From assembly GCA_020723845.1 (NCBI GenBank), contig DYIC01000015.1:1-39898 (forward strand): a stretch of DNA of 39,898 bases, written 5' to 3'. The first letter of the stretch is position 1; every line of letters starts with the position of its first letter. A program made the position numbers and the translations under genes. Below, one piece after another: positions 15,575 to 28,806 of the stretch. The notes beneath the pieces are model-generated. The model was given only the letters and a program-made list of their open reading frames with translations, did not search any database and had not been told where the DNA came from. Source of the DNA: Hydrogenophaga sp. (GTDB taxonomy: Bacteria; Pseudomonadota; Gammaproteobacteria; Burkholderiales; Burkholderiaceae_C).

Positions 15575-17334
15575 ACCGGATCCTCCTCGATGGCATCGGC
15601 CACGATCTGCGGCTGCACACGCATGTCAGGCGGTACCCCCAGCAGGCGCAGCGTCTGCTGGGCGACGTCCGAAAACACCGGCGCCGCCACCGCGCCACCG
15701 TAGATCACGCCGTTGCTGGGCTCGTCGATCATCACCGCGATCACCACGCGCGGCTGATCGATGGGCGCCAGGCCGACGAAAAAGCTGCGGTACTTGCGGG
15801 CGGCGTAACCCTTGCCCTCCTGCTTGCGCGCGGTGCCGGTCTTGCCCCCCACGGAGTAACCCACCGTCTGCGCCAGTTGCGCCGTGCCGCCGGGGTCGGC
15901 GGCCATGTGCAGCATGTGCCGCACCGCCAACGCATGGCGCTCGCTGAACACGCGCACGCCATGCGCGGGCTGGTCGGTGCGCAACAGGGTGATGGGCACC
16001 AGCTCGCCATCGCGCGCGAACACGGTGTAGGCCTGCGCCAGCTGCAGCAGCGACACCGACAACCCATAGCCATAGCTCATGGTGGCCTGCTCGATCGGGC
16101 GCCACGTTTTGTACGGCCGCAGTCGGCCGCTGGTGGCACCCGGAAACGGTACTGGTGGCTTGTGCCCGAAGCCGGCGCGGGTGTAAGCCTCCCACATGTC
16201 GCGCGGCTGCAACTGCATGGCCATCTTTACCGTGCCGACGTTGCTGGACTTCTGAATCACCTCGTTGACCGTCAACACGCCATAGGGGTGCACATCGGAA
16301 ATCGTGAAGCCCCCCATCTGCAGCCGCCCCGGAGCGGTGGGGATCGGTGTCTCGGGCGTGACCAGCCCCTTGTCCAGCGCCAGCGCGGCGATGAACGGCT
16401 TCATGGTCGAGCCAGGCTCGAAGCTGTCGGTCAGCGCCCGGTTGCGCAGTTGCTCGCCGGTCAAGCTGCGGCGGTCGTTGGGGTTGTAGCTGGGGTAGTT
16501 GGCCAACGCCAGCACCTCGCCCGTGTGCGCATCCAGCACCACCGCACTGCCCCCGCGGGCGTTGTGCTGTAGCACCGCGTCTTTCAGGCGCTGGTAGGCA
16601 AAGTACTGGACCTTGCCGTCGATCGACAGCTGCAGGTCTCGGCCATCGACCGGCGGCACGATGTCGCGCACATCCTCGACGATGCGGCCCAGCCGATCCT
16701 TGATCACGCGGCGCGAACCGGGACGACCGCTGAGCTCGCGGTCGAACGCCAACTCGACCCCCTCTTGGCCACGGTCTTCGACGTTGGTGAAACCCACCAC
16801 GTGCGCCAGCGCTTCCCCCTGCGGGTACTGGCGCTTGTACTCCTTGCGCAGGTACAGGCCCTTGATGCCCAGCGCCTGCACCTGACGCGCCACCGGCTCG
16901 TCCACCTGGCGCTTGATCCAGACAAAGTTTCGCTCACCCACCTGCAGCCGGCGCTGGAGTTCGGCCAGCGGCATCTCCAGCAACCGTGCCGCTTCGCGCA
17001 ATCGGGGGTGGTTGGGATCGACGTCCTCGGGGTCGGCCCAGACGCTCTGCGCCACCACGCTGGTGGCCAAAATCATGCCGTTGCGGTCCAGGATGCGGCC
17101 GCGGCTGGCGGGCAGCTCCAGCGTGCGGGCATAGCGCACCTCGCCCTGGCGTTGGAAGAAGTCGTTGCCGATGACCTGCACGTACGCCGCCCGCGCCGCC
17201 AGCCCGGCAAAGGCCAGCGCCAGCATGGCGACGATGAAGCGGCTGCGCCATACGGGCGTGGCGCTGGTCAACAGCGGACTGCTCCCGTAGGCGATGCTGC
17301 GCGGCACCGGGGCGGGCGTCGGCTTGCGGCTCAC
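15571..17334 (-). CDS. ftsI: Septal peptidoglycan transpeptidase FtsI (PBP3)
   Basis: FtsI cross-links septal peptidoglycan and works with FtsW. The 587-residue protein has a cytoplasmic tail, a single membrane helix (about residues 31-51, SRFIVAMLALAFAGLAARAA), and a pedestal domain with RGRILDRNGMILA. The penicillin-binding transpeptidase domain follows: STMK at 309-312 (catalytic Ser309), SSN at 363-365 and KTG at 498-500. All three active-site motifs are intact. The start overlaps the ftsL stop by 4 nt. Confidence 0.99.
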   Translation of the reverse strand: MSRKPTPAPVPRSIAYGSSPLLTSATPVWRSRFIVAMLALAFAGLAARAAYVQVIGNDFFQRQGEVRYARTLELPASRGRILDRNGMILATSVVAQSVWADPEDVDPNHPRLREAARLLEMPLAELQRRLQVGERNFVWIKRQVDEPVARQVQALGIKGLYLRKEYKRQYPQGEALAHVVGFTNVEDRGQEGVELAFDRELSGRPGSRRVIKDRLGRIVEDVRDIVPPVDGRDLQLSIDGKVQYFAYQRLKDAVLQHNARGGSAVVLDAHTGEVLALANYPSYNPNDRRSLTGEQLRNRALTDSFEPGSTMKPFIAALALDKGLVTPETPIPTAPGRLQMGGFTISDVHPYGVLTVNEVIQKSSNVGTVKMAMQLQPRDMWEAYTRAGFGHKPPVPFPGATSGRLRPYKTWRPIEQATMSYGYGLSVSLLQLAQAYTVFARDGELVPITLLRTDQPAHGVRVFSERHALAVRHMLHMAADPGGTAQLAQTVGYSVGGKTGTARKQEGKGYAARKYRSFFVGLAPIDQPRVVIAVMIDEPSNGVIYGGAVAAPVFSDVAQQTLRLLGVPPDMRVQPQIVADAIEEDPV

Positions 17335-17621
17335 GGCTGCCCCCCCGGCTCGACCACGGTGGTCGCCAACGTCACGTATTCGGTGATGCCCGGGTGCGCG
17401 GGACGCATTTGCAACTGGCGTTGTGCCATCTGCTGCACACGCGACGGGGCGGCCAGCGCACGCTGCTGCGCCACCAGCCGCTCGTGCTCGGCGGCCAGGC
17501 GGTTGGCCTCGGCGCGCGCACGCTCGTTGGCCACGTACAGGCGGCGCGAGTCGTACTGCAGCGTCACCAGATAGAAACAGCTGGCCAACAGCGCCAGCAA
17601 CAGCACGAGGTTCAAGCGCAT
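17331..17621 (-). CDS. ftsL: Cell division protein FtsL
   Basis: FtsL is a small bitopic protein that pairs with FtsB by coiled coil and activates FtsWI. The 96-residue product has an N-terminal membrane helix ([20 protein letters not shown]), then a heptad-like stretch rich in Ala, Glu and Arg (residues about 30-62), and a short C-terminal tail. The sequence is poorly conserved in general; the identification rests on size, topology and its place between rsmH and ftsI. It overlaps rsmH by 10 nt and ftsI by 4 nt. Confidence 0.93.
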
Positions 17622-18565
17622 CGCGGCCCCCTCGTATCGGCTGGCGCCGGTGCAGCGGTGCGGGTGGCCGCGCGCATCACGGCGCTGCGCGCACGCGGGT
17701 TGGCCTCGACCTCTGCCGGGGACGGCAGGGTGCGCGTGACGTGTGCCAGCAACGCGGGCGGCGGCTCGACCACGGGAGCGCGGCGATCGACCGATGGCCG
17801 CGCGTGCGCCACCATGAAGCGCTTGACGCAGCGGTCTTCCAGCGAGTGGAAGCTGATCACCACCAGCCGCCCGCCCGGGCGCAGCAGCACGAGCGACGCC
17901 TTCAGCGCCTGTTGCAGCTCTTCAAGCTCGGCGTTGACGTAAATCCGAATAGCCTGAAATGTGCGCGTTGCAGGGTCCTTGCCCGGCTCGCGGGTTTTGA
18001 CCGCGCCAGCCACGATTTCGGCCAGCTCGGCGGTGGTTCGAACAGGCCCCCGTTCCTGTCGGCGACGATCAATCGCCTTTGCAACCGATGCAGCAAACCG
18101 CTCTTCGCCGTATTCACGAAACACCTCCGTCATCTCGGCCACGCTGGCCGTGGCCAGCCACTGGGCGGCGCTGAACCCGCGCGTGGGATCCATGCGCATG
18201 TCCAGCGGCCCGTCGTGGCGGAAGGAAAAACCGCGCGCCGGGTCGTCCAACTGCGGCGAGCTCACGCCCAAGTCCAGCAGCAGCCCGTCGGCACTGTGGG
18301 CCGGCTCATGCACCAGGGCGGCAAAGCCTTCGTGCCGCACCGCCACCCGCGGGTCGGTCGCCGCCAGCGCCTGGGCCACCGCAATCGCCTCGGGGTCCTT
18401 GTCGAACACCGTCAGGCGCCCCCGCGGCGACAAGCGCTGCAAAATCGCGCGGCTGTGACCGCCGCGGCCAAACGTCGCGTCGATGTAGTGACCGTCCGGT
18501 TGGATCTGAAGGGCCTCGACCGCTTCGTTCAACAGGACGGTGCGATGGGGATGGGTCATCGGCAC
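17612..18565 (-). CDS. rsmH: 16S rRNA (cytosine1402-N4)-methyltransferase
   Basis: RsmH (MraW) methylates N4 of C1402 in the ribosomal P site. The 317-residue protein has [13 protein letters not shown], the SAM-binding loop [14 protein letters not shown], the [10 protein letters not shown] acidic strand, and the [20 protein letters not shown] signature. GTG at 18565 was chosen as start because GAGGAG lies 6 nt before it; the ATG two codons on (18559) is the alternative and changes only the first two residues. It follows mraZ by 10 nt and overlaps ftsL at its end. Confidence 0.97.
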
Positions 18566-18575
18566 CGCCCGCTCC

Positions 18576-19004
18576 TCAGAACGAAAAGTCCTGGAAGGCC
18601 TCGGGCATCTCGCCCTTCATGGCCTCGGCCTCCTGGGCCGCGTACGTGGCCGCATCCCAGAGTTCGAAGTGATTGCCCATGCCCAGCAGCATGGCCTCTT
18701 TGGTGATGCCGGCCGCCGCGCGCAACTCGGGCGCAATCAGCACGCGCCCCTGGGCGTCCATCTCGACGTCCTGCGCATTGCCCAAGAAGATGCGCTTCCA
18801 CCACTGCGCCGACATGGGCAGCTGCGCGATGCGCTGGCGAAACGCCTCCCACTCCGGGCGGGGAAAGATCATCAGACAGCCGTGCGGGTGCTTGGTGATG
18901 GTGAGCAGACCGCCCGCCGTGGCGCTGAGGACGTCGCGATGCCGGGTCGGCACCGAGAGCCGACCTTTGGCATCGAGACTGAGGGACGAGGCGCCTTGGA
19001 ACAC
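18576..19004 (-). CDS. mraZ: Transcriptional regulator MraZ
   Basis: MraZ is the DNA-binding regulator of the dcw cluster and represses its own promoter by binding short direct repeats. The 142-residue protein is made of two AbrB-like halves, each with the conserved DxxxR motif: [11 protein letters not shown] near the N-terminus and [12 protein letters not shown] in the second half. It starts with GTG at 19004. The ribosome binding site is weak (GGGAT 7 nt upstream). Immediately upstream are four 10-bp phased repeats, its probable operator. Confidence 0.97.
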
Positions 19005-19023
19005 GGATCAGATCCCGCCGTGA

Positions 19024-19063
19024 AAAACCACTTTTCACCACTTTTTTGCACTAGCTCCCACTT
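19024..19063 (-). promoter_or_regulatory. Putative MraZ operator: four phased 10-bp repeats
   Basis: On the minus strand four units follow each other without gaps: AAGTGGGAGC, TAGTGCAAAA, AAGTGGTGAA and AAGTGGTTTT. Three keep AAGTGG and the second is degenerate (AGTGC). MraZ of other bacteria binds TGGG-type boxes repeated every 10 bp, so spacing and core match the family rule. The array starts inside the -10 box of the predicted mraZ promoter and covers the start point and early leader, which fits autorepression. Confidence 0.75.
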
Positions 19064-19089
19064 TAGCACCAAAAACCTCCGCACGACAA
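19060..19089 (-). promoter_or_regulatory. Predicted sigma-70 promoter of the dcw cluster (mraZ promoter)
   Basis: TTGTCG (19084-19089, 4 of 6 to consensus) and TAAAGT (19060-19065, 4 of 6) are 18 nt apart, with a TG just upstream of the -10 (TGCTAAAGT, extended -10). The start point would be near 19052, giving a leader of about 48 nt before the GTG of mraZ. The -10 overlaps the first MraZ repeat. Confidence 0.5.
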
Positions 19090-19124
19090 GTCCGCCGCGG
19101 GTTTTTTCTCGTGAAATCAAAGAG

Positions 19125-19157
19125 TTAAGGCCAATTGGGCACCCCAATCGGCCTTAA
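19125..19157. repeat. Inverted repeat between hslU and mraZ
   Basis: TTAAGGCC and ATTGGG pair with CCCAAT and GGCCTTAA (8 bp, one mismatch, 6 bp, loop of 3 nt). A run of six T lies on the minus strand before the stem, not after it, so it is not a canonical intrinsic terminator for hslU. It could still separate hslVU from the dcw transcript, or act as a protein-binding palindrome. It sits in an unusually AT-rich stretch (about 19010-19200). Confidence 0.5.
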
Positions 19158-19240
19158 AAAACAGACGCCGAATCAAATGCTTACAAGGCAGCGTGCAAGC
19201 AGCTTGTCAAGAAGCGCGGCGCCCTCGCGCGCGGCGCCGG

Positions 19241-20560
19241 TCAGAGGATGAAGCGCGACAAATCCTCGTGCCGGGCCAGCTCGCCCAGCCGGGCGTCGAC
19301 CATGGCGGCATCCACCGTGACGGTCTGGCCGCTGTGGCGCACCGCGTCGAAGCTGATCTCGTCGAGCAGCCGCTCCATGACCGTGGCCAGACGGCGCGCC
19401 CCGATGTTTTCGGTGCGCTCGTTGACCTCGTAGGCGATGGTGGCGATGCGCCGGATGGCGTCGTCGGCAAACACCAGTTGCACCCCTTCGGTGGCCAACA
19501 GTGCCTGGTACTGGCGCACCAGGCTGGCGTGCGTCTGGGTCAGGATCGCCTCGAAATCCTGCACCGACAGCGGCTGCAGCTCCACCCGGATCGGAAAGCG
19601 CCCTTGGAGCTCCGGGATCAGGTCACTGGGCTTGCTCAGGTGAAACGCGCCGCTGGCGATGAAGAGGATGTGGTCGGTCTTGACCGGCCCGTATTTGGTG
19701 GAGACGGTGGTGCCCTCCACCAGCGGCAGCAGGTCGCGCTGCACGCCCTGGCGCGACACGTCGGCGCCGCCGACCTCGCTGCGCGTGGCCACCTTGTCGA
19801 TCTCGTCGATGAAGACGATGCCGTTTTGCTCAAGGTTATGGATCGCCTCGGCACGAATGTCCTCCTCGTTGACGAGCTTGGCGGCCTCCTCCTCGATGAG
19901 CAGGCGGCGTGCCTCGGCGATGCGCAGGCGGCGCGTCTTGCGCCGCCCCAGGTTGAGCTGACCGAACAGCCCCTTGATCTGCTCGGCCATCTCTTCCATG
20001 CCGGCGGGCGTCATCACCTCCAACTGCGGCTGGCTCGCCGCCAGCTCGATATCGATTTCCTTGTCGTCGAGCTGACCCTCACGCAGCTTTTTGCGAAACA
20101 CCTGGCGCGCCGCGCCGTCGCGCTCCACGTCGCCGTCGCGCGGCGGGGGCAGCAGCGCATCCAGGATGCGGTCTTCGGCCACATCCTCGGCGCGCGTGCG
20201 CACGCGCGCCATCGCGGCCTCGCGCGTTTGCTTGACGGCGATGTCGGCCAGGTCGCGGATGATGCTGTCGACGTCCTTGCCGACGTAGCCGACCTCGGTG
20301 AACTTGGTGGCCTCGACCTTGATGAAGGGCGCGCCAGCGAGCCGGGCCAGCCGCCGCGCGATCTCGGTCTTGCCCACGCCGGTCGGGCCGATCATCAGGA
20401 TGTTCTTGGGTGTGATCTCGGCGCGCAGCTTGGGGTCGACCTGCTGGCGCCGCCAGCGGTTGCGCAGCGCGATGGCCACCGCGCGCTTGGCCGCCTGCTG
20501 GCCTACGATGTGCTCGTCGAGCTCGGAGACGATCTCCTGCGGGGTCATGGCAGCACTCAC
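19241..20560 (-). CDS. hslU: ATP-dependent protease ATPase subunit HslU
   Basis: HslU is the AAA+ unfoldase that feeds substrates to the HslV peptidase. The 439-residue protein shows [16 protein letters not shown], the Walker A GPTGVGKT at residues 58-65, the pore loop with GYVG, the I-domain with the acidic/basic helical region (about 130-240), Walker [10 protein letters not shown], and the sensor-2 region [18 protein letters not shown] 20560 was chosen because it overlaps the hslV stop (GTGA) and has GGAGG 7 nt upstream; the ATG at 20548 has no such site. The C-terminal LSRFIL tail docks on HslV. Confidence 0.98.
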
Positions 20561-21135
20561 GACAGCACCTCCACGGTGTGGTGTTGGTTGGTGTAGATGC
20601 ACAGGTCGCCCGCGATGCGCAGCGCCTCGCGCACCACGGCCTCGGCCGGCAGCGCCGTGTGGTCGAGCAGCGCCAGCGCCGCCGCCTGCGCGTAGGCGCC
20701 ACCGGAGCCGATAGCCACGATACCGCGCTCGGGCTCGAGCACATCGCCGTTGCCCGTGATGACCAGGCTGGTGCTGCGATCGGCCACGGCCAGCATCGCC
20801 TCCAGCCGACGCAGCACGCGGTCGGTGCGCCAGTCCTTGGTCAGCTCGACCGCGGCGCGCAGCAGGTGGCCCTGGTGCTTGTCCAGCTTGGCTTCGAACC
20901 GCTCGAACAGGGTGAAGGCGTCGGCCGTCGCGCCCGCAAAACCGGCCAACACCTGGTCGCGGTAGAGCCGGCGCACCTTGCGCGCACTGCCCTTGACCAC
21001 GATGTGGCCAAGCGTAACCTGGCCGTCGCCGCCCATGGCGACCTGCACGCGGCCGGGGTCGGCCGGATCGGGGCGCCGCACACTGACGATGGTGGTGCCG
21101 TGAAAGACGGCAGAAGAGGACGAGGGGCTTTCCAT
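20557..21135 (-). CDS. hslV: ATP-dependent protease peptidase subunit HslV
   Basis: HslV is the proteasome-beta-like threonine peptidase. It has 192 residues with a propeptide of 13 residues; cleavage after FHG exposes TTIVSVRR, so Thr14 becomes the catalytic nucleophile. The usual motifs follow: [12 protein letters not shown], the [23 protein letters not shown] segment, and [16 protein letters not shown]. The ATG at 21135 is 5 nt after the stop of the STAS-like gene, has no Shine-Dalgarno, and is preceded 7 nt upstream by GACAAT, so it may have its own promoter and be read leaderless. The propeptide is Ser-rich and longer than in E. coli. Confidence 0.98.
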
Positions 21136-21140
21136 GCCCG

Positions 21141-22829
21141 CTATTGTCGCAGGCGCACGGTGGCCACCTCGTCGATGCCGACCACATGGAAGAGCACCGC
21201 CAACAGCGGGCTCACGCCGTCGAACTCGACCCACACGCCGCGCCCGCGTGCCGCCAACAGCCACTGCAGCAAGGCCCCCGCGGCCGCGAAATCGACCCGC
21301 TGCAGCCGCCGGGCATCGAGGACGAGCCGCCGTTGCACGTCGGCGTCTCGAAGCGCCGCATCCCACGCGGCCAGCACCGCAGCGATGTCGCCGAGCAGCA
21401 CCCCCTCCAACCGCAACACGGGCGCGGCCTCGGGGCCGTGCGTGGGCACCGACCAACCCGATGCCTGCACCGTGGGTACAGCGGGAAACTCGGACTCGGC
21501 CGCCGGCAGTGCCGACGTGGCGAGCTCGGGCCACGCAGCGACCTCGTCCAGTGACGCCGCGGGCTGGGCCGGCGCCAATGGCGCGGGCGCTGGCGGCAGC
21601 TCGGGCCAGGCGTCCGTGGCCTCGACCCGCGCCACCGGCTCCCGCCAGGTGGGGGGTAGCTCGCCGTAGGTCACACACCAGTCGAGCGCGACCAGATCGA
21701 ATTCGTCGCGCCGCCCCATCAGGTGCAGGGCCGCCAGCCGCAGGCGCCACCACACGGGGTGATTCTCGCGCCGCCCGGACGGCGTGCTGGCCTTCAAGCG
21801 TCGCCGCAGCACGGCGCAGCCGCGCCAACGCATGACGAGTGGCCGCTGGGCCCACTGGGCCAACACCGTCGCCAGCCGTTCGGCAGCCTCGATATCGGCC
21901 GACAGCAGATCCGTCCAGTCCAGCCACACCACGCCGTCGGCGTCGTCCACCCGCTGCGCCATCGCTTCGACGGCGGCCGCATCGAGCAGGGGCGGGCAAA
22001 CCCACGCCACCGGCGCCCCCGTCGGCTCGGCCGGCATGGAGGCGGGCGTCGCCGCTGCCGCGGGCGGCAGCACCACAGGCCAGCGCGGCACCGGCTGCCC
22101 GAAACGATCCGCCCACTCTGCGGCCCATTCGTCGAACCCCTCGACGTCGCCCGCCGCCCACAACAGATCGAGCAGCATGCGCCCCGCCACGCGGGCCAGC
22201 GGCGAACGCACTTCTTGCGCCTGCAGGGCCTCCAGTGCGCGCCGCGCCTCGTCCAACCGGCCGTTGGCGAATCGCACCGCCGCCTCGGTCAACACCGGAT
22301 GCGCGAGCCACGTTTCCAGCGCCGCCTCCGGGGGGGTGGTCTCGTGCGCCACCAAGTCGATGCTCATGCGAGGAGCCCCGGCACGCGCCTGCAAATGGCC
22401 ACTGACGATCGGTCCCGCTCGGGCGTCTCCCGGCGCGCCGATGCGCAGACCCGGCGCGTCCGTGGCGCGGGGCATCCAGTGCTGCGCCATCTGGGCCTCG
22501 ATGCGCGCGATTTGCTCGATGGTGCGGGATTTGTCCGGCCCAGAGCGGTGCCAGCCACTGCGGGCGTGGCTACTGCTGGACGGCGAAGCCACCGGCTCGG
22601 ACGCAGTGCCTGCCGCCGGCCGCACCCTCATCAGCTCGCGCAGCTCATCGAGTTCCTGGTGGCGCACGCGATCGTTGCGCCGTTTGCGCAAAATGGCCGC
22701 CTTGAGGGCGCGCCGCTCCTCGTCCAGCCCGGCAACACCGCCATCGCGGCGCGCGCCCGGGCGCCACCAGCGCTGCCACAGCTGCCGCCACCAGCCAGCA
22801 CTGGTGGGCGTCGTGGGCTGGTCAGGCAT
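21141..22829 (-). CDS. Uncharacterised STAS-like domain protein between dksA and hslV
   Basis: The 562-residue protein has no function I can name. Residues 13-22 are tryptophan-rich (WW, W, WW) and 36-70 form a basic, coiled-coil-like helix. Residues 155-245 look like helical TPR-type hairpins ([36 protein letters not shown]). Residues about 275-390 and 470-562 both resemble STAS folds: [21 protein letters not shown] in the first, [20 protein letters not shown] in the second. In the C-terminal copy the usual phosphorylatable Ser/Thr position appears to be Ala, so switching by a kinase is doubtful. Linkers are Ala/Pro-rich. It starts at ATG 22829, 47 nt after dksA, and ends 5 nt before hslV. 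Similar genes in this spot are annotated in related genomes as STAS-domain proteins (from memory). Confidence 0.8.
21143..21148 (-). promoter_or_regulatory. Candidate -10 box of hslV (GACAAT)
   Basis: GACAAT lies 7 nt before the hslV ATG and overlaps the stop codon of the upstream gene. It matches TATAAT at 4 of 6 positions and no good -35 is seen. It is listed because the same box recurs at the same place before lpxC, rlmI and pyrC, all of which lack a Shine-Dalgarno. Confidence 0.35.
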
Positions 22830-22876
22830 GGGGTGCACCCTCGCAAAAACGCCAGGCTCGCCAGCCCGTTGGCGCG

Positions 22877-23596
22877 TCAGTCGCCAAACAGCTTTTGCTT
22901 GAGTTCGCGCCGCTGCTGGGCCTCGATCGACAGACTCGCCGTCGGCCGCGCCAGCAGCCGTCCGACCCCGATGGGCTCGCCGGTCTCTTCGCAATAACCG
23001 TAGTCGCCACTGTCGATACGCGCCAGCGCCTGCTCGATCTTTTTGAGCAGCTTGCGTTCGCGGTCGCGCGTGCGCAGCTCGAGCGCGTGCTCTTCCTCGA
23101 TGGTAGCGCGGTCGGCCGGGTCGGGCACCACCACCGTGTCTTCACGCAGGTGCTCGGTGGTCTCGCCGGCATTGCTGAGGATGTCGGCCTTGAGCGCGAG
23201 CAGCTTGCGGCGGAAATACGCCAGCTGCACATCGTTCATGTACTCGCTGTCGGGCATGGCCAGGATGTCGGCGTCGGTCAGCTGCTCGACGGGCAGCTTT
23301 TTCCAGTTATCGGCCCGGGCGGGATCTTTGCGCAGGGCGGAGGCGGTCGTCGGGGCAACGGTGGTCGTCATGGCAGGTTCGGGGGCATAGCTGGCCTTGG
23401 CCGCGCGCGGGTCGTGCGTGGGCGCCACCGCTTCGGTGGTCTGCGCATGCATGGCGGCCTTCTCGGCGCGGCGCGAGGCCGCCACCGACGGTTTGCGCGC
23501 CGCGCGCGGCTTGGCCTCACCACCGCCCCCGTCGGACGGGGCGGCCGAGGCGGCATCGGAGGACGGGACCTCGCTCGATGGCGAACGGTTCTTCAC
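22877..23596 (-). CDS. dksA: RNA polymerase-binding transcription factor DksA, cysteine-poor form with long N-terminal extension
   Basis: DksA enters the RNA polymerase secondary channel and, with ppGpp, adjusts transcription of rRNA and amino acid genes. The 239-residue protein is long (E. coli 151): the first 75 or so residues are Ala/Pro/Lys-rich and look disordered. The coiled-coil tip DPADRATIEEE keeps the two Asp and the Ala needed for activity. The globular end keeps the fold (YGYCEETGEPIG, ARPTASLSIEAQ), but of the four zinc cysteines only Cys202 remains; the others are Thr205, Ser223 and Ala226. GTG 23596 has GGAG 8 nt upstream; ATG 23371 (164 aa) is a possible later start without a clear site. 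Confidence 0.93.
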   Translation of the reverse strand: MKNRSPSSEVPSSDAASAAPSDGGGGEAKPRAARKPSVAASRRAEKAAMHAQTTEAVAPTHDPRAAKASYAPEPAMTTTVAPTTASALRKDPARADNWKKLPVEQLTDADILAMPDSEYMNDVQLAYFRRKLLALKADILSNAGETTEHLREDTVVVPDPADRATIEEEHALELRTRDRERKLLKKIEQALARIDSGDYGYCEETGEPIGVGRLLARPTASLSIEAQQRRELKQKLFGD

Positions 23597-23692
23597 GGCG
23601 CATCTCCTCTGGTCTGAACGGGTGCGGACGCTGAGCGGCGACACCCTGGCGGCCTCCCCGCCGCCTGGGCACACCCGACCGAATGGGCGCCG

Positions 23693-23698
23693 ATTGTA
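23693..23698 (-). promoter_or_regulatory. Candidate -10 box upstream of dksA (TACAAT)
   Basis: TTACAAT lies about 97 nt before the dksA start, in the gap after the COG0523 gene. It matches TATAAT at 5 of 6 positions; no convincing -35 is present because the upstream 17-24 nt form the GCGCAG/CTGCGC hairpin. It would give dksA its own promoter and a leader of roughly 90 nt. Confidence 0.4.
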
Positions 23699-23699
23699 A

Positions 23700-23717
23700 G
23701 CGCAGTCGGGGCTGCGC
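23700..23717 (-). terminator. Short hairpin after the COG0523 gene
   Basis: GCGCAG pairs with CTGCGC around a six-base loop, 32 nt after the COG0523 stop. It is followed by TTACAAT rather than a true T-run, so any termination would be weak; the structure also abuts the candidate dksA promoter. Confidence 0.3.
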
Positions 23718-23749
23718 TGGCCCCGCATGTGGCAGCAGGCCGACGCGCG

Positions 23750-24820
23750 TCACGCCAGCGATTGTTCCAACCCCTGCACCAGGATGTCGCGCGGCAGGTC
23801 GATGCCGATGAACACCATCTTGCTCTCGCGCGTCTCGCCCGGCTTCCACACCGGCCCGAGGTCGCTGCCCATCAGTTGGTGCACGCCCTGAAAAATCACC
23901 TTGCGGTCGGTGCCCTGCATGTACAACACCCCTTTGTAGCGCAGCAGCTTCGGCCCCCAGACCTGCACCACCGCACCCAGGAAGTCCTCCAGCTTGTGCG
24001 GATCGAACGGACGCTGGCTGCGCCAGACGAAGCTCTGGACATCGTCGTCGCGGTGATGGTGCTTGCCGTGGCCATGGCCATGCCCGTGCTCGTGCGCGCA
24101 ATGGCCGTGCTCGTGGTCGCAGTGGCGGTGGTCGTCGTGCTCGTGGTCGTGCGCGTGCCCGTCGGCCTGCAGAAAGTCCGGGTCGATCTCGAGCTTGGCG
24201 TTGAGGTTGAAGCCGCGCAAATCGAGTACCTTGGACAGCGGCACCTGGCCGAAGTGCACCGGCTCGATGGGCGCGCGCGGGTTCATGTGCTTGAGGCGAT
24301 GGATGAGCGCATCGAGCGCCTCGGGCGTTACCAGATCGGCCTTGCTGATGAAAATCTGGTCCGCAAAGCCCACCTGGCGGCGCGCCTCCTGCCGCTCGTC
24401 GAGCTGCTGCGGGGCGTGCTTGGCGTCCACCAAGGTCACGATCGCGTCGAGCAGGTAGCTCTCGGCGATCTCGTCGTCCATGAAAAACGTCTGCGCCACC
24501 GGCCCCGGATCGGCCAGCCCGGTGGTCTCGATGATCACGCGATCGAACGCCAGCAGCCCCTTGCGCCGCTTGGCCGCCAGCAGCGACAGCGTGCTGCGCA
24601 GGTCCTCGCGGATGGTGCAGCACACGCAGCCGTTGCTCATCTGCACGATTTGTTCCTCGGTGTCGGCCACCAGGATCTCGTTGTCGATGTTTTCGGCGCC
24701 GAACTCGTTTTCGATCACGGCGATGCGCTGCCCGTGCGCCTCGGTGAGCACGCGCTTGAGCAGCGTGGTCTTGCCCGAGCCCAGAAAACCGGTGAGGATG
24801 GTTGCAGGAATGAGTGCCAT
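23750..24820 (-). CDS. COG0523 (CobW/ZNG1-type) GTP-dependent metal chaperone with histidine-rich loop
   Basis: COG0523 G3E GTPases hand metals, often zinc, to client proteins. The 356-residue protein has Walker A GFLGSGKTT (residues 11-19), the metal-binding GCVCC at 64-68, the ETTGLADPGP switch segment, SKADL as the base-recognition motif, and the CobW C-terminal domain. Between the two domains, residues 222-256 contain 17 histidines and two cysteines (Cys234, Cys241), a metal reservoir or sensor loop. The gene lies 21 nt after rlmI and upstream of dksA. No Shine-Dalgarno precedes ATG 24820, but TACACT lies 6 nt upstream (24827-24832). I see no AT-rich Zur-type palindrome nearby. The client metal is not certain. 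Confidence 0.93.
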   Translation of the reverse strand: MALIPATILTGFLGSGKTTLLKRVLTEAHGQRIAVIENEFGAENIDNEILVADTEEQIVQMSNGCVCCTIREDLRSTLSLLAAKRRKGLLAFDRVIIETTGLADPGPVAQTFFMDDEIAESYLLDAIVTLVDAKHAPQQLDERQEARRQVGFADQIFISKADLVTPEALDALIHRLKHMNPRAPIEPVHFGQVPLSKVLDLRGFNLNAKLEIDPDFLQADGHAHDHEHDDHRHCDHEHGHCAHEHGHGHGHGKHHHRDDDVQSFVWRSQRPFDPHKLEDFLGAVVQVWGPKLLRYKGVLYMQGTDRKVIFQGVHQLMGSDLGPVWKPGETRESKMVFIGIDLPRDILVQGLEQSLA

Positions 24821-24841
24821 GGGATCAGTGTAGAGCAGGTG

Positions 24842-26026
24842 TCAAGGCCGGCGCCACAGCACCAGCCCTTTGAGGTACTCGCCCTCGGGAAAGGCGAGCC
24901 CGGTCGGATGGTCGGGGGCACCGCCGTGCCGCGCCACGATGGTGGCGTCCACCCCCGCCTCGTGCGCGGCGCTGGCGATGATTTTCTGAAACAACTCGAC
25001 CCCCACCGCGCCCGAACACGAATACGTCAGCAGCAAACCACCCGGGCGCAGCAGCTTGAAGCCCAGCCGATTGACGTCTTTATATGCCCGCGCGGCGCGC
25101 TCCAGGTGCGTCGCCGACGGCGCGAGCTTGGGCGGATCGAGCACGATCAGGTCGAACTGCCGCCCCTCGGTCGCGAAGGCGCGCAGACTCGCGTTGACAT
25201 CGGCGTCCAAAAAGGTACAGCGTGCCGCCTCGAAGCCGTTGAGCGCCACGTTGCGTTGCGCGCGCGCCAGTGCCGGGGCGGAGGAGTCGATCGACGTCAC
25301 GTGGCGCGCCCCACCGGCGAGTGCCGCCACCGTGAACCCCCCGGTGTAGCAATAACAGTTGAGCACCTCCGCCACCCCAAAGCGGCGCGTCAGGTGCGCG
25401 CAATCGCGCCGGCTGTCGCGCTGGTCCAAGTAGTAGCCCGTCTTGTGTCCCTCGGCCACGTCCAGACTCAGGCGCCAGCCGTTTTCTTGGATCACGCACT
25501 CGGTGGGGCCGGTACCCCGCAGCCAGCCCGTCACCGGCGGCAGCCCTTCGCGCTGGCGCACGCTGGCGTCGGAACGCTCGTACAGTCGCGTCAGGCCCGT
25601 CACCCGCAACAGCGCGTCGGCGATCGCGGCCTTGTGCCGCTCGGCGCCGCTGCTGCCAAACTGCGCGACCAGCGTCTCGCCGTAGCGATCCACGACCAAG
25701 CCCGGCAGCCCATCGGACTCGCCGTGCACCAGCCGCACGCCGTCGCTGTCGATGGCCAGCCGCGAGCGCAGCTCGACCGCAGCGCGCAGACGCCGCTCGA
25801 AAAACGCGCCGTCGATGCGCTCGGCCTCGTCGAAGCTCCAGACGCGCACGCGGATCTTGGAGCGCGGCGCATACGCGCCCCAGGCCAGAAAGCGCCCGTC
25901 GGCGCTCTCCACCCGCACGGTCTCGCCGGCATCCGCCTGACCGCGCTCGATCGCGCCATCGAACACCCACGGGTGGTGGCGCAGTAGCGAGCGCTCCTTG
26001 CCCGCTTTCAGTCGAATCGTCTTCAT
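24842..26026 (-). CDS. rlmI: 23S rRNA (cytosine1962-C5)-methyltransferase
   Basis: RlmI methylates C1962 of 23S rRNA. The 394-residue protein has an N-terminal PUA domain (IRLKAGKERSLLRHHPWVFDGAI), a linker domain, and a Rossmann methyltransferase domain with LNCYCYTGGFTVAALAGGA (SAM loop), DADVNASL, the catalytic LDPPKLAPS and LTYSCSGAV. ATG 26026 begins MKTIRLKAG, the family start; 13 further codons of open frame upstream reach into the IS607 end and were not included. There is no Shine-Dalgarno, but GACAAT lies 8 nt before the ATG. The IS607 element ends only tens of bases upstream, so the native promoter region may have been cut or replaced. Confidence 0.95.
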   Translation of the reverse strand: MKTIRLKAGKERSLLRHHPWVFDGAIERGQADAGETVRVESADGRFLAWGAYAPRSKIRVRVWSFDEAERIDGAFFERRLRAAVELRSRLAIDSDGVRLVHGESDGLPGLVVDRYGETLVAQFGSSGAERHKAAIADALLRVTGLTRLYERSDASVRQREGLPPVTGWLRGTGPTECVIQENGWRLSLDVAEGHKTGYYLDQRDSRRDCAHLTRRFGVAEVLNCYCYTGGFTVAALAGGARHVTSIDSSAPALARAQRNVALNGFEAARCTFLDADVNASLRAFATEGRQFDLIVLDPPKLAPSATHLERAARAYKDVNRLGFKLLRPGGLLLTYSCSGAVGVELFQKIIASAAHEAGVDATIVARHGGAPDHPTGLAFPEGEYLKGLVLWRRP

Positions 26027-26034
26027 GGGGATGG

Positions 26035-26040
26035 ATTGTC
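26035..26040 (-). promoter_or_regulatory. Candidate -10 box of rlmI (GACAAT) at the IS junction
   Basis: GACAAT ends 8 nt before the rlmI ATG. The bases that would hold a -35 (about 26057-26063) lie in or beside the IS607 end and read GAGTAA, a poor match. If the IS inserted here it would have separated this -10 from its original -35. Confidence 0.35.
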
Positions 26041-26064
26041 CCACCGTTCCATCAGACTTACTCA

Positions 26065-26082
26065 TTCCTGCTCACGCAGGAA
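26065..26082 (-). other. Perfect hairpin over the tnpB stop codon, near the IS607 end
   Basis: TTCCTGC and GCAGGAA form a perfect 7-bp stem with a 4-nt loop that contains the tnpB TGA. TnpB guide RNAs (omega RNAs) usually span the 3' end of tnpB and the adjoining element end, so this hairpin is a candidate structural part of that RNA. It could equally be a subterminal recombinase-related palindrome. Confidence 0.5.
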
Positions 26083-27295
26083 CGAAGCTGACTTCCTGCT
26101 TCACAGAGGCTGGTTTCGTCTTGAGCTTGCGCCCAAGGCCAGAGCCTGCCTCTCCACAGGCTTGACATCCGGCGGAACTCGCCGTAGGGCCGCTTAGGGC
26201 GGCCAGGCCATACGCCAGGAGATTCCTGGCGGCATTCACATCGCGATCATGGATGATTCCACAGTCCGGGCACGTCCATTCACGCACCGACAGCGGCAAA
26301 TCATCGAGCCTGTGCCCGCACGCCGAGCACGTCTTGCTGCTCGCAAAGAAGCGATCTGCCACCACCACCTGCCCGCCGCGCATCGCGGCCTTGTATTGCA
26401 GTTGCCGCCGGAACTCGAAGAATCCCATGTCCATGATGGAGCGGGCCAGATGGCGGTTCTTTGCCATGCCGCGCACGTTCAGATCCTCGATGCCGATGGT
26501 GTGAAACCGGCGCGTGAGGTCTGTCGTGAGCTTGTGCAGCGCGTCCGCGCGGATGTTGACGATCCTGGCATGCAGCTTTGCCAGTCTGGCTCTGGCCTTC
26601 TTGCGGTTGGCCGAGCCTTTTTGCTTGCGACTCAGGCTGCGCGAGAGCCTTCGCAATCGGTCCAGCAGCGCCTTGTGGGGCTTCGGGCTGGGAAACATCT
26701 CTCCCGTCGAGAGCGCGGCGAGTGCCGACACACCCAGATCGACGCCTACCGCGCCTTGGTTCTCGGCTTTGGGCAGGTGCGACGTGTCGGATGTGTCCAC
26801 GGTGATGCTGGCAAACCAGCGGTCGGCCACACGGGAGATGGTGGCCGACATGAGCTTGCCAGCGAAACGCAACGGCTCGCGCATGCGCACCCATCCCAGA
26901 CTGGGGATGCGGATGCGACAGCCGTCGATGCTGAACTGGTCGTTGGTGAGCGTGAAGCGGTCATGCACGCCCTTCTTGCGAAACTGCGGATAGCGGGCAC
27001 GGCCTGCAAAGAAGTTCTGGAACGCCTGCCCCAACTGGATGATTGCCATCTGCGGAGCGCACTTGGTCACCTCCAGCATCCAAGGGAACTGCTCACGCTT
27101 GATGGCGTTGAGCTGTCGACGCAAGGACTGCTGCGATGGCTTGGGCAGGCTAGGGTTGGCTTTCCATACCTCGTACTGGCGCTTCCACTCGACTAGTGCC
27201 CAGTTGTAGGCAAAGCGCGCAACACCGCACGCACGGGCAAAGTAGGTCGCCTGTGCGTTGTTCGGATCGAGCGCGATGCGGTGGGCAATCAGCAT
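26072..27295 (-). CDS. tnpB: IS607-type RNA-guided nuclease TnpB
   Basis: TnpB is the RuvC-like, RNA-guided DNA nuclease carried by IS200/IS605 and IS607 elements, ancestor of Cas12. The 407-residue protein has an N-terminal helical/OB region and the split RuvC domain: Asp186 in GVDLG, Glu270 in GIEDLNV, and Asp352 in HDRDVNAA. A zinc ribbon carries Cys323, Cys326, Cys342 and Cys345. All catalytic and zinc residues are present, and length is typical, so it should be active if expressed. Its start overlaps the tnpA stop (ATGCTGA), so translation is coupled to the recombinase. Composition is somewhat less GC-rich than the neighbours, consistent with transfer. Confidence 0.95.
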   Translation of the reverse strand: MLIAHRIALDPNNAQATYFARACGVARFAYNWALVEWKRQYEVWKANPSLPKPSQQSLRRQLNAIKREQFPWMLEVTKCAPQMAIIQLGQAFQNFFAGRARYPQFRKKGVHDRFTLTNDQFSIDGCRIRIPSLGWVRMREPLRFAGKLMSATISRVADRWFASITVDTSDTSHLPKAENQGAVGVDLGVSALAALSTGEMFPSPKPHKALLDRLRRLSRSLSRKQKGSANRKKARARLAKLHARIVNIRADALHKLTTDLTRRFHTIGIEDLNVRGMAKNRHLARSIMDMGFFEFRRQLQYKAAMRGGQVVVADRFFASSKTCSACGHRLDDLPLSVREWTCPDCGIIHDRDVNAARNLLAYGLAALSGPTASSAGCQACGEAGSGLGRKLKTKPASVKQEVSFVPA

Positions 27296-27918
27296 TGCGC
27301 AGCCTCCACGGCAGCCCGCACGCCTTCGATGAGCTTCTGGTTCTTGCGGGAGCGGCTGCCATAGAGCCGGGCACTGAAGACGGTGATGATCTCCAGCACG
27401 TCTTTTGCCAAGTCTTCCTCGAACGTCGTGTCCTCGCCCTGGTTGAGGATCACGACTTCGACGTTCTTCGCCTCGCAGATGGCAAACACCAGTTCCGCGC
27501 CCAAGCGCAGCAGCCGGTCTTTGTGCGTGATGACCAAGCGCCCGACCTGCCCGTCGATGATTGCATCGAGCAGGCGCTTGAGGCCCTTCTTGTGATAGTT
27601 CATGCCGGAACCCAGGTCGGCAATGACCTCGAACGTCCAGCCTTGGCGGGCGCAGTAGCGTTCGAGCACCTGCTTTTGCCGCTCTAGGTCGTCTTTCTGG
27701 TCGTGGCTGGAGACCCGTGCGTAGGCGATGGTGCGCCGCGCCGTTTCCGCTGCGCGGAATTGCTCTGGCCGAAGCCGCGCAAGGTCGTAGCGACGCCGGC
27801 CACCCGGCGTGCGTTCATCGGGCAAAAGCCGACCTTCGCGCTCCCAGCGGCGCAGAGTCTGCGGCGACACGCCCACGAACTCGGCGGCCTCTTGAATGCT
27901 GACCATCTTGCGAGACAT
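27289..27918 (-). CDS. tnpA: IS607-type serine recombinase (transposase TnpA)
   Basis: This is the large-scale mover of IS607. The 209-residue protein has an N-terminal MerR-like helix-turn-helix (VSIQEAAEFVGVSPQTLRRWEREGRL, about residues 6-31) and a resolvase catalytic domain starting TIAYARVSSHDQ, where Ser70 is the likely nucleophile, followed by RLVITHKDRLLRLG. ATG 27918 was taken as the start. An upstream GTG (27933) lies between the -35 and -10 of the predicted promoter and cannot be in the message. No Shine-Dalgarno precedes the ATG, and the predicted start point coincides with it. A second in-frame ATG (27906, MVSIQEAA) is the alternative. Confidence 0.92.
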   Translation of the reverse strand: MSRKMVSIQEAAEFVGVSPQTLRRWEREGRLLPDERTPGGRRRYDLARLRPEQFRAAETARRTIAYARVSSHDQKDDLERQKQVLERYCARQGWTFEVIADLGSGMNYHKKGLKRLLDAIIDGQVGRLVITHKDRLLRLGAELVFAICEAKNVEVVILNQGEDTTFEEDLAKDVLEIITVFSARLYGSRSRKNQKLIEGVRAAVEAAQC

Positions 27919-27924
27919 GATCAA

Positions 27925-27953
27925 AATATACACTTCTGCGCAATAACAGTCAA
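27925..27953 (-). promoter_or_regulatory. Strong sigma-70 promoter of IS607 tnpA
   Basis: TTGACT (27948-27953, 5 of 6) and TATATT (27925-27930, 5 of 6) are exactly 17 nt apart, the best consensus promoter on the minus strand in this window. The -10 ends 6 nt before ATG 27918, so the transcript probably begins at or within a base or two of the start codon. Confidence 0.75.
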
Positions 27954-28806
27954 CTTTTTATATGAGTCCAGTACCTTTGGCACTCGGGTTGATGTTGCAA
28001 GAAGAAGGATAGCGGTGAACGCTGGCCGAGGGTGTGGTGCGGACGCTGAAGCGTTGTAGAAGACGAGCCAGTCGGCGAGCTTGCGGTTGAAGAGGGCGAG
28101 GTCGGTAAAGAGCAACTCCTCGTGGTCGTCCACGAAGGACTCCTGGATCGTGCGATGGAAGCGCTCGGCGTGGGCGGGCGTCCGGGCGTTTTGGGGTAGG
28201 TGTACCAGCGCTTGACGCCGCGCTCCTTCAAGGAGCTGGGCGAAGTCGGCTTCGAACTCGCTGCCGTTGTCGGACAGCACCGTCGTGGGGCTCTGGGGCA
28301 GCAGGGACAGGCCCCGTTCGAGGGCGCGGGCGGTGTACCGGGCGTGCTTGGAGGGTAGCCCCACGGCAAAAGCAAAGTGTGAAACTGGATCGATGAAGGT
28401 GACGATGTAGCGGGGCATGCCGCAAGCGACTGCGCTCGCGGGTAGAGCAGGCCAGCACCTCCAGGGCTTGGGCTTTGACCTTGGTGGGGTGGAGGGTGCG
28501 TAGCCGCCGGATTTCGCTCACCAGGCGCGGGTCGGTCTTGGGCACCCTGCGCTTTCGTGGAGCGCAGGATTGTGCGGCCAGGGCAGCCGGGTTGCCGCCT
28601 TGGGCTTTGAGGGCGGCTTTCCAGCGGTAGAGGGTGCGGCGCGAGACACCGAAGGCGTCACGGGTCGCGGCCAGTCCGTGCTTGTCGAAGAAACGAAGAA
28701 TTTCAAGGCGTCTGTGGGCATCTTTGGGTGTCATGTCCCAAAGATGCCCCAGAGCCGCTACCCGGTAAAACCCCCGGATGCGGTACCCACCGCGGTGGAT
28801 TTGCAT
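27950..28806 (-). pseudogene. Decayed DDE (integrase-core) transposase, frameshifted and internally deleted
   Basis: The remains of an rve-type transposase are spread over three frames. From ATG 28806 comes an N-terminal helix-turn-helix (RLEILRFFDKHGLAATRDAF, VSRRTLYRWKAALKAQGG). Around 28420-28450 the frame changes and a block of perhaps 100 residues before the catalytic core seems lost. The core then reads RYIVTFIDPVSHFAFAVGLP and VLSDNGSEF (first two acids). The middle part KERGVKRWYTYPKTP-like, the AERFHRTIQESFVDD region with the last Glu, and the tail RPHHTLGQRSPLSF lie in alternating frames. At least three frame changes make it non-functional. Family is IS3/IS481-like; the exact group is uncertain. 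Confidence 0.85.
27973..27985 (+). repeat. Left terminal inverted repeat of the degenerate IS
   Basis: ACCTTTGGCACTC; it pairs with 28828-28840 without mismatch. The similarity extends outward by two more bases on each side (GT/AC) if one extra base on the right is allowed. Confidence 0.75.

Follow-up and report, generated by a model that had tools for sequence, protein, structure and literature searches.

We analysed a window of 39,898 nucleotides from a Hydrogenophaga genome (2.27 Mb in 118 contigs), which carries on its minus strand, between dksA and hslV, a gene for a TPR-STAS-TPR-STAS protein (hereafter the TPR-STAS protein). The gene (21141..22829; 562 codons, 562 aa) starts with an ATG at 22827-22829 and stops with a TAG at 21141-21143. 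It is separated from the dksA stop by 47 nt and from the hslV ATG by 5 nt. A sequence-only reading of the window had given these coordinates and spacings correctly without the strand. The upstream dksA gene (22877..23728, minus strand) has an uncertain start codon, and its reading frame permits a long N-terminal extension, the DksA domain lying at residues 164-272 of 283. Directly after the TPR-STAS gene comes hslV (20557..21135, minus strand), followed by hslU (19241..20548, minus strand), which was named from its own sequence. Between dksA and the TPR-STAS gene there is a weak terminator-like hairpin (22851..22868, minus strand); the region has three terminator-like sites, compared with a mean of 1.2 (sd 1.2) in shuffles. 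A search of 20900-24000 for sigma-70-like promoters found 0 with 0.1 expected, an RNA family search of 17000-28000 returned no match, and no kinase gene is among the named neighbours of the TPR-STAS gene. The window also contains a CobW gene at 23750-24820 that encodes a His-rich stretch, and at 26072-27295 (minus strand) a gene for a 407-aa OrfB/TnpB-type transposase with a Cas12f-like TNB domain.

Three congeners match the TPR-STAS protein over nearly its full length at 60-69% identity, and a fourth matches residues 1-414 at 63% identity. Among the named loci fetched, Tepidimonas is nearest to the window's genome. Against six congeners, dN/dS was 0.25-0.64 for the TPR-STAS gene and 0.09-0.16 for hslV, values that indicate a gene under constraint, yet one evolving far faster than hslV. 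This is a genuine gene and not a chance ORF.

Domain anatomy and module duplication

An AlphaFold2 model of the TPR-STAS protein, built with a 60-row alignment of relatives, contains folded parts and disordered linkers (mean pLDDT 76.8, pTM 0.47). All feature coordinates in this section are on the minus strand. A basic helix at residues 35-69 (22623..22727), a helix in the model and conserved as columns in the A1 and A2 alignments, carries the RKRRND..R..E...LR motif of the window's family and represents a family-specific N-terminal extension. The model also places a second conserved N-terminal helix (IARIEAQM) at residues 99-118 (22476..22535), with invariant I107, I110 and M114. The Trp-rich start described in the sequence-only reading holds for the window and its congeners, but most other relatives in the family have an LLSKVVxFVxNPTxxW-like start. 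Across the order, a VFSFFKKK-like N-terminal segment, defined by a pattern of our own, occurs in 26 of 39 sequences.

TPR-like helical region 1 (residues 168-250, 22080..22328) was assigned from the model and from profile homology to the FimV-type cytoplasmic TPR region, and TPR-like hairpin 2 (residues 358-395, 21645..21758), which carries an SPPSW-type motif, from the model and profile comparison. The helical repeats proposed earlier are recovered in the model, with five TPR-like helices at 168-243 and two at 358-388. A weak BamD match (TIGR03302, 12.9 bits) and the BamD/TPR rows of the fold searches were taken as reflecting a generic TPR fold.

The C-terminal domain, STAS2 (residues 466-562, 21144..21434), is clearly a STAS domain. 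It passes the Pfam STAS_2 cut-off (E 1.4e-9 at 472-553; 38.4 bits, cut-off 29.2), is folded as such at 471-560 in the model, and matches TM1442 (1vc1) in structure (Z 12.8, rmsd 2.2, 95 residues). The middle domain, STAS1 (residues 274-350, 21780..22010), was assigned from profile comparison, a separate model and the STAS_2 stretches of relatives; the full-length model shows a domain of strands and helices at 274-348, and the Pfam scan of the window protein gave no match over this region. STAS1 and STAS2 align in profile comparison with 98.3% probability (E 1.5e-13). Two STAS_2 stretches (each E 1 or better) were found in 6 of 8 relatives, hand-picked from 39, and the middle domain gives the best PF01740 stretch in 2 of the 8. 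Modelled alone, residues 265-410 reached a pTM of 0.89, and the top rows of their structure search were mostly STAS domains, at weak scores (Foldseek E at least 0.044, Z at most 7.1). Because these structural matches are weak, the assignment rests on sequence, and the middle domain is a degenerate STAS domain supported mainly by profile comparison. The two STAS folds of the sequence-only reading hold, the C-terminal one by Pfam and structure and the middle one by profile.

The same reading had seen no obvious acceptor residue in the C-terminal domain, which also holds. The window protein has Ala515 at what we take to be the position of SpoIIAA Ser58, and this position is variable in relatives, being Ser or Thr in 29/60 close and 5/39 order-wide sequences; neither STAS domain has a conserved phospho-acceptor. 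These counts bear on the idea that the protein is an anti-anti-sigma or stressosome-like component of a partner-switching system with an unlinked kinase. STAS2 is structurally closest to TM1442, SpoIIAA and transporter STAS domains, the arrangement of a STAS domain behind an N-terminal sensory part resembles RsbR, and the anti-sigma factor antagonist model TIGR00377 matches 15/39 order-wide members at E 0.01 or better. The window protein, however, has no TIGR00377 match, and with Ala at an acceptor position so rarely Ser or Thr across the order, partner switching is very unlikely. Without a conserved acceptor at this position, we also set aside a phospho-switch role.

The last part of helical region 1 is related to hairpin 2 (profile comparison, 98.9%), and module 1, from that part onward, aligns with module 2 at 99.9% (E 1.6e-31). 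These profile comparisons show the TPR-STAS protein to be a tandem duplication of a module of TPR-like helices and a STAS domain. Helical region 1 in turn matched the cytoplasmic region of seven FimV-like proteins (profile comparison, 99.4%, E 4e-21); STAS profiles compared with the same region as a negative control gave 0.1-0.2%. The Pfam scan covered four of the seven (L168, L169, L171 and L173; the other three are L170, L172 and L177), of which L168 and L173 pass the FimV_N cut-off of 27 bits and L169 (26.4) and L171 (21.1) fall short. L161 and L165, FimV proteins from outside the order, pass it. The four scanned proteins score below the FimV_core cut-off, carry the same helical region and coexist with a canonical FimV in the genome. 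The hairpin is a TPR-type fold, and ancestry in common with FimV need not imply common partners. Passages of PMC12918733 regard the FimV TPR domain of HubP proteins as the probable main interface for binding clients. Passages of PMC7214476 describe Pseudomonas aeruginosa FimV as important for pilus assembly and twitching, and treat TapV, the Ralstonia member, as a pilus assembly protein.

A search by sequence, at E up to 10, for a relative of solved structure found none. We found no NCBIfam model specific to the TPR-STAS protein; the window protein had no NCBIfam match at E 0.01, and order-wide relatives matched general or unrelated models only.

Distribution and gene order among relatives

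The broad profile (A3) matched 184 of 300 genomes of the order at E<=0.001 and 127 at E<1e-20, and the TPR-STAS family is order-wide. A narrower profile (A1) matched 26 of 274 genomes of the class at E<=0.001. Three of these belong to the family of the window; the remaining 23 matches (best E 2.9e-11) are weak or short, and several fall within long frames. Of the 23, four were translated, and the two scanned with Pfam are FimV proteins.

Gene order was compared at 79 named loci, which are best matches and not a random sample, and at 40 distant loci (L118-L157) hand-picked from 136 matching genomes, one of which, L156, is a short paralog. At the named loci hslV follows the TPR-STAS gene in 76/79 and dksA precedes it in 77/79, with contig ends truncating the remaining two; in 3/79 the fetched flank has no hslVU and the gene lies between dksA and mraZ. 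At the distant loci hslV is downstream in 37/40, at gaps of -8 to 611 nt, and dksA is within the fetched upstream flank of ~3 kb in 9/40. The distant loci differ in their upstream genes, which revealed no additional constant partner. The dksA-hslVU address is old and hslV is the most constant neighbour. The gene order that the sequence-only reading had regarded as fixed holds for hslV, and for dksA in part of the order. At 24 of the 40 distant loci a zinc-handling gene lies no more than 3 kb upstream (CobW-type GTPase 12, ZnuA-type 12), labels that come from Pfam on two CobW-type examples and one ZnuA-type example.

Short relatives, consisting of helices, one STAS domain and the hairpin, are present in G098 (L156:2713-3396) and G142 (L178:2710-3396), two genomes of another family than the window's, both without PilB over the cut-off. 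A spoT/relA-type gene precedes them by 18 and 20 nt. The short spoT-linked relative was sought in two further genomes with no match, in a search that had no positive control. Further short relatives are a tandem pair in L175 (1293-1955 and 2125-2832) and one in L176 at about 2045-2653; no neighbour common to these was recognised.

These neighbours are the evidence for placing the TPR-STAS protein in the stringent response, as a regulator tied to DksA and ppGpp. The gene follows dksA at every named locus not cut by a contig end, and the short relatives follow spoT/relA in a second family. However, few of the distant loci have dksA upstream, and the spoT neighbours come from two genomes of a single family, so that we consider such a regulator quite unlikely.

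Co-occurrence with PilB, HslV, FimV and FliF

HslV, FimV core (E<=0.001) and PilB were sought in the same 300 genomes of the order. Presence of the TPR-STAS gene was defined as an A3 match at E<1e-20, a threshold chosen after the scores had been seen, which gave 127 genomes, or 125 after the short paralogs of G098 and G142 were dropped. The pilus was scored by PilB alone, one T4P gene, at E<1e-200 (166/300 genomes, the same number as with the curated cut-off). This threshold is strict because, below the curated cut-off, the search also picks up related ATPases, as it did in 13 of 14 control genomes.

In the 125 set, genomes with and without PilB number 118 and 7 where the gene is present and 48 and 127 where it is absent (Fisher p 1.5e-34); with the short paralogs kept, the counts are 118/9 vs 48/125 (p 2e-32). 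The corresponding counts are 124/1 vs 132/43 for FimV (FimV_core E 0.001 or better) and 120/5 vs 109/66 for HslV. With ancestry handled by family strata, a crude correction, z in the 127 set was 6.3 for PilB over 10 informative families, 3.0 for HslV and 2.7 for FimV over five each. The PilB link persists in genomes that have both HslV and FimV (114/7 vs 29/59, 127 set). Within the genomes that have PilB, presence of the gene is also associated with HslV (115/3 vs 37/11, p 8e-5) and FimV (117/1 vs 38/10, p 2e-5). PilB is the best predictor of gene presence among the systems compared.

The association with HslV, together with the 5-nt spacing in the window and the constancy of hslV downstream, is what one would expect of a protein that regulates the HslUV protease or acts as its adaptor. 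Such a protein would be co-translated with hslV, its hairpins would hold substrates and its STAS domains would dock on HslU or HslV. Yet the gene is absent from 109 of 229 HslV genomes and present in five without clear HslV, the fetched flank of three named loci that carry it contains no hslVU, and PilB-negative genomes show no significant link with HslV (p 0.30). We judge a role in HslUV proteolysis unlikely. The sequence-only reading had suggested a link to the stringent response or HslUV from location; this does not fare well against the partial dksA adjacency and the poorer prediction by HslV. Neither HslUV nor DksA was retained as the first choice of direct target, because PilB is tracked more closely than HslV and dksA adjacency is limited.

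Among 34 relatives of the window's family, both genomes without the gene (G032 and G035) are without PilB over the cut-off, and 30/32 carriers have PilB, two damaged copies included (p 0.011). The genomes G024 (100% complete) and G004 (73%) carry the gene without PilB over the cut-off. In one further genome (G268) the gene, PilB over the cut-off and a FimV match are all missing. Over the whole set, seven genomes have the gene without PilB over the cut-off, two of them with split reading frames, and 48, including entire families, have PilB but not the gene. PilB in the window's genome is on another contig (C78), and no pil gene was noticed beside the TPR-STAS gene in a view of its neighbours that was not a systematic scan. 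The damaged copies are in congeners. One (G002, C28:28894-29889) has an in-frame loss of residues ~285-477, which removes the middle STAS domain and the second hairpin, and in the other (G005, L022:1477-2032) the N-terminus alone remains. Both genomes keep PilB over the cut-off, and since damaged copies occur alongside PilB, pilus assembly as such probably does not require the TPR-STAS protein.

The 48 PilB genomes without the gene would also suit a general membrane or envelope scaffold that was lost in lineages losing pili, its link to the pilus being indirect, and the PilB statistics are uncorrected for genome size and lifestyle. As a control we used the flagellar protein FliF, which is also often lost. 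In a subset of 125 genomes with three informative families for each system, FliF barely co-varies with the gene (41/11 vs 45/28, p 0.05, stratified z -0.4); PilB in this subset gave 49/3 vs 24/49 (p 9e-13, stratified z 2.4). Against a scaffold, the PilB link also holds inside families, and we regard this explanation as unlikely.

A candidate pilus adaptor and its relation to known systems

Co-occurrence and homology suggest that the TPR-STAS protein may be a usually single-copy cytoplasmic adaptor of the order's type IVa pilus/FimV polar system, a tentative reading to which we give a little less than an even chance. The protein arose when a module combining FimV-type TPR-like helices with a STAS domain was duplicated in tandem, as the profile comparisons show. 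On this proposal, its helices would pair with the cytoplasmic region of FimV or bind FimV's clients. Lacking a conserved phospho-acceptor, the two STAS domains would serve as fixed docking surfaces for a pilus or regulatory partner and not as a kinase-driven switch. The N-terminal segment is basic and hydrophobic, VFSFFKKK-like in most of the order-wide sequences and a long basic helix in the family of the window; it probably keeps the protein near the membrane or another acidic partner. The dksA-hslVU address would reflect inherited gene order and co-expression and not the target of the adaptor.

A broader version, which we offer as a long shot, is that TPR-STAS modules form a hitherto unrecognised adaptor family linking growth control with type IVa pili and the pole that FimV organises. 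The growth-control side would be represented by the long form beside dksA and the short form beside spoT, and pilus activity would follow the ppGpp/DksA state through non-phosphorylated STAS docking.

The open-licence literature gave no description of the TPR-STAS protein among the matches listed, and none joining a STAS domain with FimV, with hslU, with TPR and pilus, or with hslV and dksA. STAS domains and twitching motility came together in one review, which concerns cyanobacterial carbon concentration. PMC8256260 does not mention two STAS domains, TPR, Burkholderia, Proteobacteria or MlaB. Each part is of a known kind. As far as our search reached, neither their arrangement in tandem nor its distribution has been described. 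If the adaptor reading is true, a soluble, order-wide protein with a FimV TPR-like region and STAS domains would be a new kind of cytoplasmic partner of the type IVa pilus, and a single gene, easily located upstream of hslV, gives a direct handle on this idea. The case also cautions that a very stable housekeeping gene order can be a poor guide to function.

Four known systems resemble the TPR-STAS protein in part. It shares the STAS fold of STAS2 with the anti-sigma factor antagonists SpoIIAA and RsbV (Z 11-13), but has two STAS domains and TPR-like helices and lacks a conserved acceptor Ser/Thr. RsbR and other stressosome proteins carry a STAS domain behind a variable N-terminal sensory part; the TPR-STAS protein has TPR-like helices, and its named neighbours include no kinase gene. 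With MlaB (NF033618) it has a STAS_2-type domain in common, and differs in being multi-domain and in having dksA and hslV as neighbours; an MlaB-like role in lipid transport was rejected at 12.9 bits against an NF033618 cut-off of 90. Known FimV-type hubs are membrane proteins. In FimV/HubP/TspA (PF25800 FimV_N, TIGR03505) the cytoplasmic TPR-like region is homologous to helical region 1 of the TPR-STAS protein; where FimV/HubP proteins have FimV_N, LysM and FimV_core, of which the TPR-STAS protein has none (Pfam and NCBIfam, E up to 10), it has STAS domains.
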